Virus record (IMG/VR): IMGVR_UViG_3300007346_000058
Location: 1-41,694 of that record
Strand: one strand, 5' to 3'
Length of the DNA: 41,694 nucleotides
Source of the DNA: a virus
This document shows, in pieces, positions 2,024 to 40,700 of this stretch (position 1 is its first letter; every line of letters begins with the position of its first letter). A program made the translations under genes and the position numbers. Below the pieces are notes generated by a model. The model saw nothing but the letters and a program-made list of their open reading frames with translations, was not told where the DNA came from and ran no database searches.

Positions 2024-2054
2024 GCACCTTAAAATGACCATTTTTTTCCCTATA

Positions 2055-2090
2055 CTACTACTACTACTACTATATATATATTATTTTTTT
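2055..2090. repeat. (CTA)6 and (TA)n microsatellite followed by a T-rich tract
   Basis: Six CTA units (2055-2072) run into TA repeats and then a stretch of A/T only. It sits in the 203-bp intergenic region upstream of the primase gene, next to the GTCA motif array. Such easily melted DNA would suit a DNA-unwinding element; that role is inference. Confidence 0.6.
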
Positions 2091-2114
2091 ATTCTAAAAA
2101 TTAATGGTATAAAA

Positions 2115-2193
2115 CGGTCAAACGGTCAAAGTCATTGATAATTAACAATTTAAACGTCACAAAACAGTCACTTTTATGTCACACAACGTCACT
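2115..2193 (+). repeat. Array of seven GTCA motifs; candidate origin or operator
   Basis: GTCA occurs at 2117, 2125, 2131, 2156, 2167, 2178 and 2188, all in the same orientation. The first two are in an ACGGTCAA repeat. The last four are GTCAC, spaced 11, 11 and 10 bp, so they lie on one face of the helix. The last two are inside the first codons of the primase-helicase. One inverted copy (TGAC) lies at 2035-2038. The pattern fits replication iterons or an autorepressor site. Which protein binds it cannot be read from the sequence. Confidence 0.5.
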
Positions 2194-4560
2194 ATATTTA
2201 AAAACATTAAAGAAACACAGACACCATTTCATTTACCTATTGGTGTTATACTTGATAGAATCAAGAACGGTAAGAGTAAGGAACTCGTAAAGTCTATAAG
2301 GTCTGAGAAGGATAAGAACAAAAGAGCCGAACTAAAGCAACAGTTACCTGCTATATGCTTTAGTGGTACATTTAATAAAAGAAACGATAAGTCGATATTA
2401 GAACATAGTGGTATCATATGCTTAGACTTTGATGATTATGAGAAGAAGACCATAATGAAGGAGCATAAAGATAAGATTGCAAAAGACAAGTATGTATACT
2501 CTGTATTTGTATCTCCATCAGGAAATGGTCTTAAGGTATTAGTTAAGATACCTGCTGATATAGATAACCACATTAGCTACTTCAATTCACTTGAAGAGTA
2601 TTTCGATTCAACATACTTTGATAAGACATCAAAGAATATTAGCAGAGTTTGTTATGAGTCTTGGGATAACCTAATTCATATCAATGAAGATTCTGAGGTG
2701 TACGACAAGGTAAAGGAGAAGGATTATGTTGAGGTTGATATATTATCTAACATAGCTACACTACCAATAACAGATGAGAATAAGATTGTAGAAATACTTG
2801 TTAAGTGGTGGGAGAAAAAGTTTCCAATGCACGAGGGTATGCGAAACCAAAATGCATACACATTAGCAATGGCATTCAATGAGTATGGTATTAACAAGTC
2901 TTTAGCTTCATATGTACTAAACAGATATGAACAGGAAGACTTTACTCTAAAAGAGATACAAACTACCATTGATGGTGCATATAGCAATACCAATAAGTTT
3001 AGAACAAAGTTCTATGAGGATGAGTCTGCAATTAACATTGTAAGGATGAAGGTTAAGAATGGAGCGAGTAAAAAAGAAATCATTGAAGAGTTAGATAGTA
3101 ATAATAAATCATATCCTGAATGTGATATTGAGTCAGTTATTGAGCGTGTAGACAATGAAGGTCCAAATGTAAAATTTTGGTCTAAGAGTGAGAAGGGTGT
3201 AGTTAGAAACATACCTGTATTGTTTAAGCAGTTTCTTGAGGATAATGGATTCTATAAGTATTCACCTGAGGGAACAACTAACTTTGTATTTGTAAGAGTT
3301 ATTGAGAATTTAGTAGACCACACATCAGACAAGGAGATAAAAGACTTTATATTGAATTATCTTATAGAGCTTGACGATATGTCGGTTTATAATTACTATG
3401 CAGATAGAACAAGTTTATTTAAGGAAGACTTTCTTACGTTACTATCGACTATTGATATTCATTTTGTTAGAGATACAAAAGATACATCATTCCTTTACTA
3501 CAATAATTGTGCAGTAAAAGTTACCACAAATGATATTGATATAATTAAGTATGTTGATTTAGATGGATACGTTTGGAAGGACCACGTAATAGACAGGACA
3601 TTTAGAATGTGTCGTAATTACGATTGTGATTATAAAACATTTATATCAAGGATATGTGGTGGCAGTCAAGATAGGATTGATACCGTAGAATCAACAATTG
3701 GTTTTATGCTACACGGATATAAAAATCTATCCTCTTGCCCGGCAATCATATTAAACGATGAGGTTGCTAGTGAGAATCCTGAAGGTGGTACGGGTAAAGG
3801 AATATTTATTAATGCATTAGCCCATATGAAAAAGCTAGTAGTGATTGATGGTAAGGCATTCAACTTTGAGAAGTCGTTCCCATATCAGACCGTATCAGTT
3901 GATACGCAACTGCTATGCTTTGATGATGTGAAACGTAACTTTGATTTTGAAAGATTATTTAGTGTAATTACTGAGGGTTTAACATTGGAGAAGAAAAACA
4001 AGGATGCAATCAAGATACCATACACTCGTTCACCGAAGGTAGCAATCACAACCAACTATGCGATACGAGGAACAGGTAATTCATTTGCAAGACGTAAGTT
4101 TGAGATTGAATTACATCCACACTATAGTAAGCAGTATACACCATTTGATGAGTTTAAGAGACATCTATTTAATGATTGGGATTCAGATGAGTGGTGCTTA
4201 TTTGATAGCTATATGGTTAACTGCCTGAGCAGTTATATGAGAACAGGTCTGATTGAGAGTGAGCTTGTTAATGGAAAGTATAAAGCCTTTATATTGGAAA
4301 CATCAGAAGACTTTGTAGAGTGGTGTGGAGTGAAGTCAGGAGAAAAGAATCACTTATTACCTGTTGAAGAAAAAATACATCTTAACAGATTGTATATTGA
4401 ATTTTGTGATGACTACCCGGACTATGGTAAGACAGGCAGTATAAAGCTAAGTAGAACAAAGTTCAATCAATATGTAAGAGCATACGCAAAATATTCGACA
4501 GGAAATGATGTTAGGCAAGGTAAAGATGCATTGGGTAAATGGTATATGATTAAGTTATGA
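2176..4560 (+). CDS. Primase-helicase: BT4734/VirE-type primase N-terminus, SF3/D5-like helicase C-terminus
   Basis: Bifunctional replication protein of 794 aa, predicted to unwind the phage fork and lay primers. The N-terminal third matches the BT4734-like domain: LDFDDY (83-88) supplies the acidic pair and VSPSGNGLKVLV (112-123) the second motif, which resembles archaeo-eukaryotic primase motifs except that Lys stands where His is usual. A PriCT-like helical segment follows (about 209-275). The helicase has Walker A GGTGKG (K541), Walker B LLCFDD (D583/D584), the sensor ITTNY (N627) and a likely arginine finger FARRKF (639-640). The domain pairing is typical of Bacteroidota mobile elements. 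It starts within the GTCA array and overlaps the next gene by ATGA. The start at 2176 is the first ATG after the intergenic region. Confidence 0.85.
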   Translation: MSHNVTIFKNIKETQTPFHLPIGVILDRIKNGKSKELVKSIRSEKDKNKRAELKQQLPAICFSGTFNKRNDKSILEHSGIICLDFDDYEKKTIMKEHKDKIAKDKYVYSVFVSPSGNGLKVLVKIPADIDNHISYFNSLEEYFDSTYFDKTSKNISRVCYESWDNLIHINEDSEVYDKVKEKDYVEVDILSNIATLPITDENKIVEILVKWWEKKFPMHEGMRNQNAYTLAMAFNEYGINKSLASYVLNRYEQEDFTLKEIQTTIDGAYSNTNKFRTKFYEDESAINIVRMKVKNGASKKEIIEELDSNNKSYPECDIESVIERVDNEGPNVKFWSKSEKGVVRNIPVLFKQFLEDNGFYKYSPEGTTNFVFVRVIENLVDHTSDKEIKDFILNYLIELDDMSVYNYYADRTSLFKEDFLTLLSTIDIHFVRDTKDTSFLYYNNCAVKVTTNDIDIIKYVDLDGYVWKDHVIDRTFRMCRNYDCDYKTFISRICGGSQDRIDTVESTIGFMLHGYKNLSSCPAIILNDEVASENPEGGTGKGIFINALAHMKKLVVIDGKAFNFEKSFPYQTVSVDTQLLCFDDVKRNFDFERLFSVITEGLTLEKKNKDAIKIPYTRSPKVAITTNYAIRGTGNSFARRKFEIELHPHYSKQYTPFDEFKRHLFNDWDSDEWCLFDSYMVNCLSSYMRTGLIESELVNGKYKAFILETSEDFVEWCGVKSGEKNHLLPVEEKIHLNRLYIEFCDDYPDYGKTGSIKLSRTKFNQYVRAYAKYSTGNDVRQGKDALGKWYMIKL

Positions 4561-6192: not shown

Positions 6193-6723
6193 ATGTACAA
6201 AATAATAGAAAAAGAAGAAATATTTAAAGATATCCCCGGTTACGATGGAGTCTATCAGGTAAGCAACTACGGGACTGTAAAGAGCCTGAAGTACGGGAAA
6301 GAAAGAATAAGAAAGCCTAGTTTTAATAACCACGGCTATCTAATAGTCGGTTTACATAAAGACGGCAAAAAGAAAACATATGGAGTACACGTTGCAGTCG
6401 CTATGGCATTCCTAGAGCACGAGCCTGACGGGATGAATTCTGTGGTGGACCATATAGACAACAATCGTTTAAACAATCACGTATTTAATTTGCAAATCAT
6501 ATCTAATCGTGAGAACTCTTCACGTGGCAAAACAGACTGCGGTGTGCATTGGTTAAAACGAGATAATAAATGGCGGGCTCAGATTAAGATAGGAGACAAA
6601 ATAGTTCACTTAGGAAGTTTCATATACAAGCAGGATGGGCTTAATATGTATCAAAAAGCATTAGAGAATATGCATTTATTTGACGGAGACAATAAAGAAT
6701 TCAGAAATATGTTAACTTTGTAG
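6193..6723 (+). CDS. Free-standing HNH homing endonuclease (NUMOD4-HNH-AP2-like)
   Basis: Selfish DNA endonuclease of 176 aa with three recognisable parts. These are NUMOD4 (IPGYDGVYQVSNYGTVKSL, 14-32); the HNH core with VHVAVAMAF (65-73), VDHIDNNRLNN (85-95) and the closing N99; and an AP2-like DNA-binding segment (GVHWLKRDNKWRAQI, 117-131). H66, D86-H87 and N99 fit the metal and catalytic positions. No intron splice structure or interrupted gene was seen around it, so it is free-standing. It directly follows the duplicated helicase end, as expected if it spreads by cutting near that site. It ends in TAG. Confidence 0.9.
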   Translation: MYKIIEKEEIFKDIPGYDGVYQVSNYGTVKSLKYGKERIRKPSFNNHGYLIVGLHKDGKKKTYGVHVAVAMAFLEHEPDGMNSVVDHIDNNRLNNHVFNLQIISNRENSSRGKTDCGVHWLKRDNKWRAQIKIGDKIVHLGSFIYKQDGLNMYQKALENMHLFDGDNKEFRNMLTL

Positions 6724-7521: not shown

Positions 7522-8151
7522 ATGGAATTAGTAAAAGATGTAGATACGGAATACAAAGATTATTTGCGTATCAGAAATGTTTTAAAAAAAGGGTACAGTC
7601 ATCCCGGAATTATATCGTCTCTTTGTAAAAAGCATTGGAAAGATGCCGAAAAAATAAAAAATGTAAGAGAAAAACTAGAACATCTCGTTGAGTGGGGTCA
7701 AGTTGAAAAGATTGAAATAGAGAAAAGTATTGGCGTGGACTTTGGAGTAATTAAAAAATATAAGTATATACTAAAAGAAAACCCGCCATCCTTATATTCA
7801 TCTCTAGGTGTAGATAGTGTTGTTGGGTGGCAAAAAATAGGAAGTATGAAAGGCAGAATAAAGTTTGATAAACTTCTTAATATATTATCTAGCTTTTACT
7901 CTCAGCCTATAGACAAAATAAAATCTACATCAAGAAAAAGAGAACTTGTAGTGCCTAGACAAATGTTTTGCTATATAACAAAGTTTAATATGCCAAACGT
8001 AACATTAAAAGAAATAGGTAAGTATCTAGGTAATCGAGACCACTCTACAATTATACACGGTATAAGAACAGCAGGAGATTTAATAGAAACAGATAAGCAA
8101 TTTAGAGAGGAATACAAGAGATTAGAATCTTATATTTTATCAAAATTGTAA
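7522..8151 (+). CDS. DnaA domain IV-like DNA-binding protein with winged-helix-like N-terminus
   Basis: A 209-aa protein whose C-terminal about 75 residues match the DnaA origin-binding domain (Bac_DnaA_C). They include SRKRELVVPRQMFCYI (137-152), LKEIGKYLGNRDHSTIIHGI (DnaA signature, D173-H174-S175-T176 and H179) and the closing helix to residue 205. In host DnaA this signature contacts the CACA half of the DnaA box. The AAA+ ATPase domain is absent. Residues about 25-90 (HPGIISSLCKKHWKDAEKI...) look like a winged helix but are not assigned. It opens a new unit 71 bp after a terminator. It may be the phage initiator, or it may bind host DnaA boxes; both are inference. Confidence 0.8.
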   Translation: MELVKDVDTEYKDYLRIRNVLKKGYSHPGIISSLCKKHWKDAEKIKNVREKLEHLVEWGQVEKIEIEKSIGVDFGVIKKYKYILKENPPSLYSSLGVDSVVGWQKIGSMKGRIKFDKLLNILSSFYSQPIDKIKSTSRKRELVVPRQMFCYITKFNMPNVTLKEIGKYLGNRDHSTIIHGIRTAGDLIETDKQFREEYKRLESYILSKL

Positions 8152-37746: not shown

Positions 37747-40700
37747 TATGGTAAGTATGCTGGTATTACATAATCTGTTCCACCTATATTAATTGTCAAC
37801 CATTCGTCAGGTTCTGATAAATATATTTCTGGTGCTCCACCAATTCTTACTATTGCATCTGCAGGTGTTTGATTTGGTAAAATACCAGGTTGCTGACCAC
37901 CTCCTGAATCTAGTCTAGTTGACCCTTCAACGTAAATGTTTCCATGTATATCTACGTTGTTACTACTATCTACTGTTATTACTTTGTTTTCAACATCTGA
38001 GCCTACTGTTATGTGATATCTATATGGTGCGTAAGTAACTAAATCATCTATAGAGTTAGCTGGGTTTCCTGTTAGGTATTGGTCATTAAATAAACCTCCT
38101 TTAAAATTAGCACCATAACCTAGGTTTATACTACCAGTTAATCCATTAGCTTCTAATGTTGTAGTCCTCGTATATCCTACAACATGTAATTCCTGCTGTG
38201 GACTAGTAGTACCAATCCCTACGTTACCTGCAGAGGTGATACGCATACGTTCTGTATTATTAGTATTTATAGTTAATGGATGGTTTGTTTCCATACCTAT
38301 AGTAGCATCAGAATCTCTAACGTAAGCAACAAATTTAGCGTTATTAGTTGTATCTATTATTCCAAGCGTTGGAATAGATGACCCTTTTATTTGTATACCA
38401 TCATACGTTGTGTCTGATACAACTTCTAGTTTCTTACCAGGACTAGTCGTCCCGATTCCTACGTTGCCACCATTTGGTTGTATTGCTAAATTATATGTTG
38501 TAGCATTTCCGTCTGTTCTTTGTGAACTTATATATCCAATACCTGAAGAGTTAGCACCAATTGCAACTCCATAGTTATCATCAGAAGTACTGTTACCAAA
38601 AACAGCAGAAGCTGTAGAAGAGCCAGCAGATGGAATTGTAGTTCCACCTTTTGCTACTTGGAGCCCTGCAGCAGGACTAGTAGTTCCGATTCCTACGTTG
38701 CCGTTATTAATTATCCTTAATTTCTCACTTGAGTTTATACGGAAAACTTGATAATTACTTGAGCCACCGCTGTACGAGGAGATTACTAGTCCACCGGCAC
38801 TATCTGAGTACAGTGTTGAGTACTCTGTTCCAGCGTTTCTTGTTAATCTTATTTGAGGACCAGTTGTTGATGATATGTCTAATTTATCACCAGGACTAGT
38901 CGTCCCAATTCCTACATTGCCGTCGTGGTCAATTCTCATTTTCTCTACAGCAGCATCACTTCCAGTAGATGATGGATGCGTAAAGAAAGCTAATCCCATA
39001 ACGTCACTATCAGTAGCTTCTTGAACTGCTGAAATAGCTACAGAACCTGTTCCTCTAGATAAAGCTATTGTTCCGTGATAATTACCAATTGCGCTTGCTC
39101 CGTCTGACTTTATTCTAATGCCTGGGGTTGTGTGCGTGCCATTGTACAAAGCTGATTGCTGGACGTGTAGTTTGTTTTCTGGACTAGTTGTCCCGATACC
39201 GACGAAGTCATTAAACTGAGCAACGTTTCCAAATACAACATTCCCGCCACCGCTATATATTAATGGAGTTACTAGATACGTGCTAGCCCTAACCGTCCCA
39301 CTCACATCCAACTTAAACGTAGGATTAGTTGTACCAATACCCACGTTACCGCTGAAGTATGACCCGTCGTCTGCAATTTGTAATTTTAAGGTTTGACCAG
39401 TTGTTCCTCCAGTAAAAAACTTATGACCTAAGCCTGCCGCTAATGTACCACCATATTCGTAATAATTTGTTGCATTAGCACCACTTGCTCTAAATTTTAT
39501 AGAATGCCAATCATCATATCCTTTTATCCAACCTTCACCTGCGATGTTTAATAATAAATTTCCGTTTACTGTTAACTTATCACCAGGGTTAGTAGTTCCA
39601 ATCCCGACGTTGCCATTAGAGTTAATTTGCAAACGAACGCTATTTGCGGTATACATTCTGATTGCATCGTTGCCTTCAAAACCTATTCTGGAGTCATCAC
39701 CATTGTGGTAGATATATCCATCTATACCCATATCTCCAGCAACATCTAACTTGAAGTCAGGACTAGTCGTCCCAATACCTACGTTGCCTTCGACTATTAA
39801 TCCATTAGTAGGAGCAGCGCTACTTGCATAGGTATTACCTATACTGGTGTTTTTCATCATTGTTTGGTAGCTTGAGCCTCCGTTAACGATTAAAGCAAAT
39901 CCGCTTCCTGCACCATCTACTCTCAAACCTTCACCAGAACTTGTTTTAACTGTGTGTAATTTAGCTCCTGGATTAGTCGTCCCGATACCAACGTTGCCTG
40001 CTGAGGTGATATGCATTCTTGAAGTTATGCCGTTTGAAAAATCAAAAGCAGTTGTAGATGTAAAACCTAAAACTCCACCTCCTGCTGCATCTGCATAAAT
40101 AGTTTTACCTGTACCTTGTGTGCCAAAATCTGCTGTTTTTATATGCAAATTACCTATTCGCGCGTCACCGTTAACTCTTAATTTGTGGTCAGGACTAGTC
40201 GTACCTATACCTACATTGCCGCTTGAATCAATATATAATCCATCTGAAGTTGTAGAGTTTGTTCTGAGATGTAGTTCGTTGTAAGTAGAAGCGCTATTTG
40301 AATATCCTATAATCTGAGAAGCTGTAGTATTGTTTCCATTTATGACTACACCTACGTTATTTGAAGTATCAAAAGACGCAGCGTATGCGTTACTACTGTC
40401 TACACTTAGTTTCCAAGTTGCAGGATTAGTCGTCCCAATACCTACGTTGCCATCTGTCTTTATACGCATATGCTCTGTAAGCGTACTAGATTGGTCTCTT
40501 CCAAATATTAAATCAGAATTGTTTGATGATATAATACCATTAGACGGGGAAGCGCTATCGTTACCTATGTAAAGCGCAGCAGTATCACTGTTAGGTCTAT
40601 TAATAGAGATTAGTTTGTGAGTAGCATCCGTAGCTCTTATTTCTAATTTAGAACTAGGATTAGTAGTCCCAATCCCGACGTTGCCGCCAGAGGTGATACG

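Follow-up and report, generated by a model that had tools for sequence, protein, structure and literature searches.

Introduction

In satellite phage P4, primase and helicase are fused in the α protein, whose C-terminal winged-helix domain binds the origin by recognising short iterons. SaPI Rep and SCCmec Cch2 are initiator helicases that bind short iterons through their C-terminal domains (PMC7581432). Specifically, Cch2 needs a 5-nt AAGTG repeat, and its isolated C-terminal domain binds the repeats (PMC7581432).

The window analysed here is a viral record of 41,694 bases. At 2176–4560 (+ strand) it encodes a 794-residue primase-helicase of phrog_28855, a family of unknown function for which no origin or iteron study was found in the open-access literature searched. 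An array of very short direct repeats runs up to and into this gene, and an initial annotation had read the array as a candidate phage origin.

The locus resembles each of the described systems in part. As in SCCmec Cch2, very short direct iterons adjoin the gene of a D5/Primase_Cterm-type helicase; the Cch2 repeats, however, lie downstream of the helicase gene as three copies in 23 bp, whereas the array of the window lies upstream (PMC7581432). Unlike the Cch2 repeats, the array is two-sided around an AT-rich tract and includes an IHF-type site. The SCCmec primase is a separate, A-family-polymerase-based protein (PMC7581432), whereas in the window protein the helicase itself carries the primase as a fused AEP domain. 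The proposed system shares with SaPI a self-loading primase-helicase initiator, iterons at an adjacent origin and C-terminal recognition (SaPI traits from PMC7581432), and the model of the window protein aligns to SaPI5 Rep (7om0/7ola). However, the SaPI origin is located just downstream of rep, the window is a phage rather than a satellite, and its iteron words are different. An origin directly downstream of the initiator gene was not found: the array is upstream, and there is none elsewhere in the loci. Because of this difference in origin position we do not assign the system to the SaPI/SCC kind, although by analogy it would work like the SaPI and SCCmec Cch2 origins.

The locus is also similar to P4 α with ori/crr in having a fused primase-helicase, a predicted C-terminal winged helix and short iterons, but no distant second cluster equivalent to crr is present in loci of ~10 kb. 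Phased iterons, an AT-rich unwinding region and an IHF-type site between the elements are shared with IHF-assisted iteron plasmids (PMC4980987), whose initiator is a RepA/RepE-type WH1-WH2 protein rather than a primase-helicase.

Results

Organization of the array in the window

GTCA occurs on the + strand at 2117, 2125, 2131, 2156, 2167, 2178 and 2188, and the last four copies are GTCAC at spacings of 11, 11 and 10 bp, exactly as first annotated. This density of seven copies per 75 bp is found nowhere else in the window; when its full sequence was shuffled 200 times with dinucleotide counts preserved, the number never rose above five, and other four-letter words containing all four bases reach at most four per 75 bp in a window scan. 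The description of the array as one run in one direction holds only in part. The seven copies are indeed direct, but they form two blocks separated by an IHF-type site, block 1 consisting of an 8-bp pair plus one extra copy and block 2 of an 11-bp series, and one reverse copy lies beyond the AT-rich tract.

The left border of the region is the intrinsic terminator of the preceding gene (1995–2017, + strand), in which AAGGGAGTTATAAAGACTCCCTT with a 9-bp stem is followed by a T-rich stretch. Terminator-like sites number 0.1 in shuffles, and comparable T-runs are present in 87 of 129 relatives. The left arm contains the reverse-oriented iteron TGACC (2035–2039, − strand; GGTCA on the opposite strand), which the initial annotation missed and which comparison with relatives identifies as part of the regular layout. 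Next comes an AT-rich tract (2048–2115) with (CTA)6 at 2055–2072 and TA/T runs, a candidate unwinding element. Iteron pair A (2116–2128, + strand) consists of two GGTCA copies at 2116–2120 and 2124–2128, spaced by 8 bp and supported by both shuffles and relatives; the extra AGTCA at 2130–2134 (+ strand) falls outside the layout of the relatives. The IHF/HU-type site AATTAACAATTTA (2140–2152, + strand) has one mismatch to WATCARNNNNTTR and is perfect in the close relatives L002 and L003.

Iteron pair B (2155–2170, + strand) consists of CGTCA at 2155–2159 and AGTCA at 2166–2170, spaced by 11 bp. It is followed by a copy that overlaps the start codon within ATGTCA (2177–2181, + strand; the copy at 2178) and by an iteron-like copy inside the primase gene (2187–2191, + strand). 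The latter, the copy at 2188, supplies the Val5-Thr6 codons of the conserved VTIF motif; it is probably in part coding-driven and therefore counts as weaker evidence. GTCAC encodes Val-Thr in eight of eight GTCA-class genomes, compared with 21 of 78 other Val-Thr starts, which is also weak evidence because the GTCA-class clade is related. A search of Rfam gave no RNA family in 1600–2600.

Conservation of the architecture in relatives

Relatives were collected as tblastn-confirmed primase-helicase homologues from viral contigs, mostly uncultured, and genomes, and yielded 190 distinct upstream regions. The alignment reveals a common layout: behind a terminator come iterons in reverse orientation and a tract like CTATACTACTATATATATTATTTTTTT; a first direct pair (ATCGACATTATCGACA, for example) and a second (AAATCGACATAAAATCGACAC, for example) then flank the conserved GATAATCAATAAGTTA, and the start is ATGACA. 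The window follows this layout, except that GTCA replaces GACA. Comparison of upstream regions shows that ATGACA at the start codon is frequent in relatives with GACA-type iterons.

For counting, we used a detector that requires a pair spaced 8–9 bp and then a pair spaced 10–12 bp, with a purine requirement in the word picker. It was built after the first alignment had been viewed, and 45 later genomes serve as its check. The detector matches 108 of 149 relatives and then 22 of the 45 further ones, but just 2 of 418 positions drawn at random from the same loci; the rate in the later set is lower because that set includes distant clades and genomes without an upstream array. A paired, phased array is present upstream of the primase-helicase in 129 of 190 distinct relatives. 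The comparison proposed in the initial annotation, of motifs and spacing in related phages, thus supports its reading as a candidate origin. The other 61 fail the detector, some with partial arrays and some without any upstream array. Under a stricter score the array is found at the primase start in 108 of the 129 relatives and nowhere else in their loci (~10 kb each). L015 and L180 keep the array even though the primase is set apart from it by an extra gene, indicating that the array is not a coding by-product. The inserted genes are small (L015:2690-3028 and L180:494-844), and the one in L015 has a stretch that looks HicB-like by eye.

The geometry is regular, with several direct repeats in helically phased spacing as in iteron origins. 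The first pair is spaced by 9 bp in 90 and by 8 bp in 18 relatives, and the second by 11 bp in 98 of 108. Distances from pair A to pair B cluster at 39, 50, 61–63 and 73–74 bp, mostly at the first three; these are steps of about one helical turn, consistent with a constant helical face. A perfect IHF-type site lies between pairs A and B in 81 of 129 relatives (shuffle mean, 0.8). Its distance to pair B is mostly 25–26 bp and is otherwise shifted by ~11 bp (15 or 36–37 bp), the window having 15 bp.

The left arm and the tract behave similarly. A genome's own iteron core occurs reversed in the left arm 113 times over the 129 relatives, compared with 65.6 ± 6.2 times with permuted cores. The equivalent tract has a GC content of 0.22, compared with 0.36 for the loci, as an AT-rich unwinding region should. 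Thus, of the originally noted (CTA)6/TA-rich tract, the AT-richness is general; the letters of (CTA)6 also fit a DnaA-trio (TAG repeats on one strand), but three or more CTA copies occur in only 15 of 129 relatives.

The iteron word varies among genomes (CGACA, CAACA, TAACA, TGACA, GAACA, GTCA) and agrees within one genome. Within-genome agreement is 208 of 315 letters, compared with 161 ± 6.5 after permutation, and for the second iteron letter 0.845 compared with 0.512; the permutation tests retain shared ancestry, and iteron words nonetheless differ in many lineages. What is conserved is therefore a coherent word in each genome, the exact GTCAC letters being kept in close relatives only.

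The primase-helicase and its C-terminal domain

The proposed initiator has an N-terminal BT4734-like domain, of the archaeo-eukaryotic-type primase (AEP) family, followed by a DUF5906/D5-like helicase. Its AlphaFold model (mean pLDDT 81) resembles ASFV PrimPol, mpox E5/D5 and the SaPI5 primase-helicase (7om0, 7ola) with moderate TM-scores; together with DUF5906, these matches to SaPI5 and to poxvirus/ASFV D5-type PrimPols point to a D5/SF3-type helicase initiator. Residues 690–794 (4243–4557, + strand) are predicted to form a winged helix (pLDDT 93.9). This 105-residue domain has no significant structural match in the PDB, the P4 origin-binding domain 1ka8 scoring E = 2. A PDB search with the family profile revealed no sequence relationship to SaPI proteins; its sole match, a designed protein, was discarded as spurious. 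In L213, a genome with AGCA-type iterons, the C-terminal GRDxxGRW is replaced by EKKKTNKKT, possibly through a frameshift or assembly error.

Residue 783 (4522–4524, + strand), in the wing of the predicted winged helix, varies with iteron type. Of 132 other sequences, 127 have Arg at this position, whereas Lys is present in each of the window's five pure-GTCA relatives. An unrelated GTCA/ATCA clade has Lys783 in four of its five members, and L035 (CATCA/TATCA iterons) has it as well. Across two unrelated clades and L035, every genome with T as the third letter of all four iterons has Lys instead of Arg, a suggestive lead that the substitution goes with a switch to T-containing (GTCA/ATCA) iterons in three lineages. 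In a tree made without the C-terminal domain, all three informative independent pairs agree (p = 0.25, three pairs being too few for the test to reach significance), and one such shared column is expected for ~17% of clade pairs drawn at random. Mixed-iteron genomes keep Arg783, as does the T-iteron clade L210/L309/L311. None of the 45 further genomes has Lys783, so that this set, which revealed the T-iteron genomes L309 and L311 with Arg783, neither supports nor refutes the link. A mutual-information scan that compared iteron letters with every primase column was dominated by relatedness and was dropped. In the L210/L309/L311 clade it is instead residue 787 that differs: the near-invariant wing glycine is Met or Ala in exactly these three, all with T-type iterons.

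We tentatively raise, as a possibility that we regard with some doubt, a diversifying origin code in a large family of Bacteroidota phages, in which the iteron word and the C-terminal wing change together (R783 with GACA, K783 with GTCA or ATCA). If this were true, each phage would initiate at no origin but its own, and there would be no cross-initiation between relatives in a co-infection.

Discussion

Region 2035–2191 is probably a replication origin whose iterons are read by the adjacent primase-helicase. This reading combines features seen directly in the sequence (the array, its geometry and phase, its within-genome coherence, the IHF-type consensus, the position and the predicted fold of the initiator) with structural modelling and analogy. 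From these features we infer a course of initiation. The primase-helicase, or hexamers of it, would use the C-terminal winged helix to bind the short iterons flanking the AT-rich tract, while an IHF/HU-type host protein would bend the DNA between pairs A and B and place all sites on the same side. The initiator complex would then melt the AT-rich tract, the helicase ring would self-load on the single strands, and the fused AEP domain would make primers as the origin fires. Since pair B extends into the start codon, binding at the array may also hold down expression of the primase-helicase.

If the reading is correct, the locus provides a precise, compact origin for a widespread and mostly uncultured phage group, and a substrate on which a primase-helicase initiator could readily be tested. 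The relatives would supply naturally matched pairs of origin and initiator with differing repeat words, a series in which to learn how a self-loading helicase reads DNA.

The region might instead be an origin whose iterons are read by DnaA-domain-IV-like proteins that then recruit the primase-helicase. Genes for such proteins lie on either side of the primase, at ~2.5 kb upstream and ~3 kb downstream, and the one at 7522–8151 (+ strand; HTH at 7867–8067) could encode a rival or accessory protein that binds the origin. Each of the 22 family genomes searched encodes at least one such protein and often two, most with an HST-like DnaA signature, and the commonest iteron, reversed, is TTATGTCGA, which starts like the DnaA box consensus TTATCCACA. 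Nevertheless, no DnaA box (TTATNCACA) is found within one mismatch in 1900–2300, let alone a cluster. In neither protein does any column separate GTCA from GACA genomes in both clades, and the upstream copy of L002 lacks the signature (YPSVRQG) while the iterons are still there. We therefore regard DnaA-like readers as unlikely. The DnaA-like proteins of the family resemble only DNA-binding domain IV of DnaA, and the array has no obvious box.

It is less likely still that the array is only an operator through which a regulator, perhaps the primase itself, controls the primase gene at the level of transcription or translation while replication starts elsewhere. The array directly precedes and enters that gene, and autoregulation of initiators through iterons is common in plasmids. 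However, a lone operator needs neither inverted arms around an AT-rich tract nor an IHF-type site, both of which are origin-like. The Bacteroidota-type −7 element TAnnTTTG occurs in 7 of 129 relatives, compared with 10 in mononucleotide shuffles, and is absent from the window region, although this consensus promoter test is weak. Chance clustering combined with coding constraint (GTC-AC codons and AT-rich intergenic sequence) may account for the copy at 2188, in its conserved Val-Thr codon pair, but for the array as a whole it is refuted by the shuffles of the window, the conservation in 129 relatives and the retention of the array beside an intervening gene.

The GC-skew check proposed with the initial annotation lends no support to the primase-helicase-read origin: at fourfold-degenerate positions up- and downstream of the array there is no GC switch at the site in 105 loci (p = 0.46), and the whole-genome skew of MW202828, a complete relative genome, follows gene strand. 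AT skew differs slightly across the array (p = 2e-5), with no clear meaning.

Several neighbouring genes are of interest. A Sak-type annealing protein (323–898) and an exonuclease-like protein (901–1629) are encoded upstream of the array, and the position of this pair next to the proposed origin suggests recombination-dependent later replication. A NUMOD4/HNH homing-endonuclease-like gene (6193–6723) lies among the replication genes of the window, and MW202828 carries annotated GroES- and GroEL-like genes at 40671–42561.
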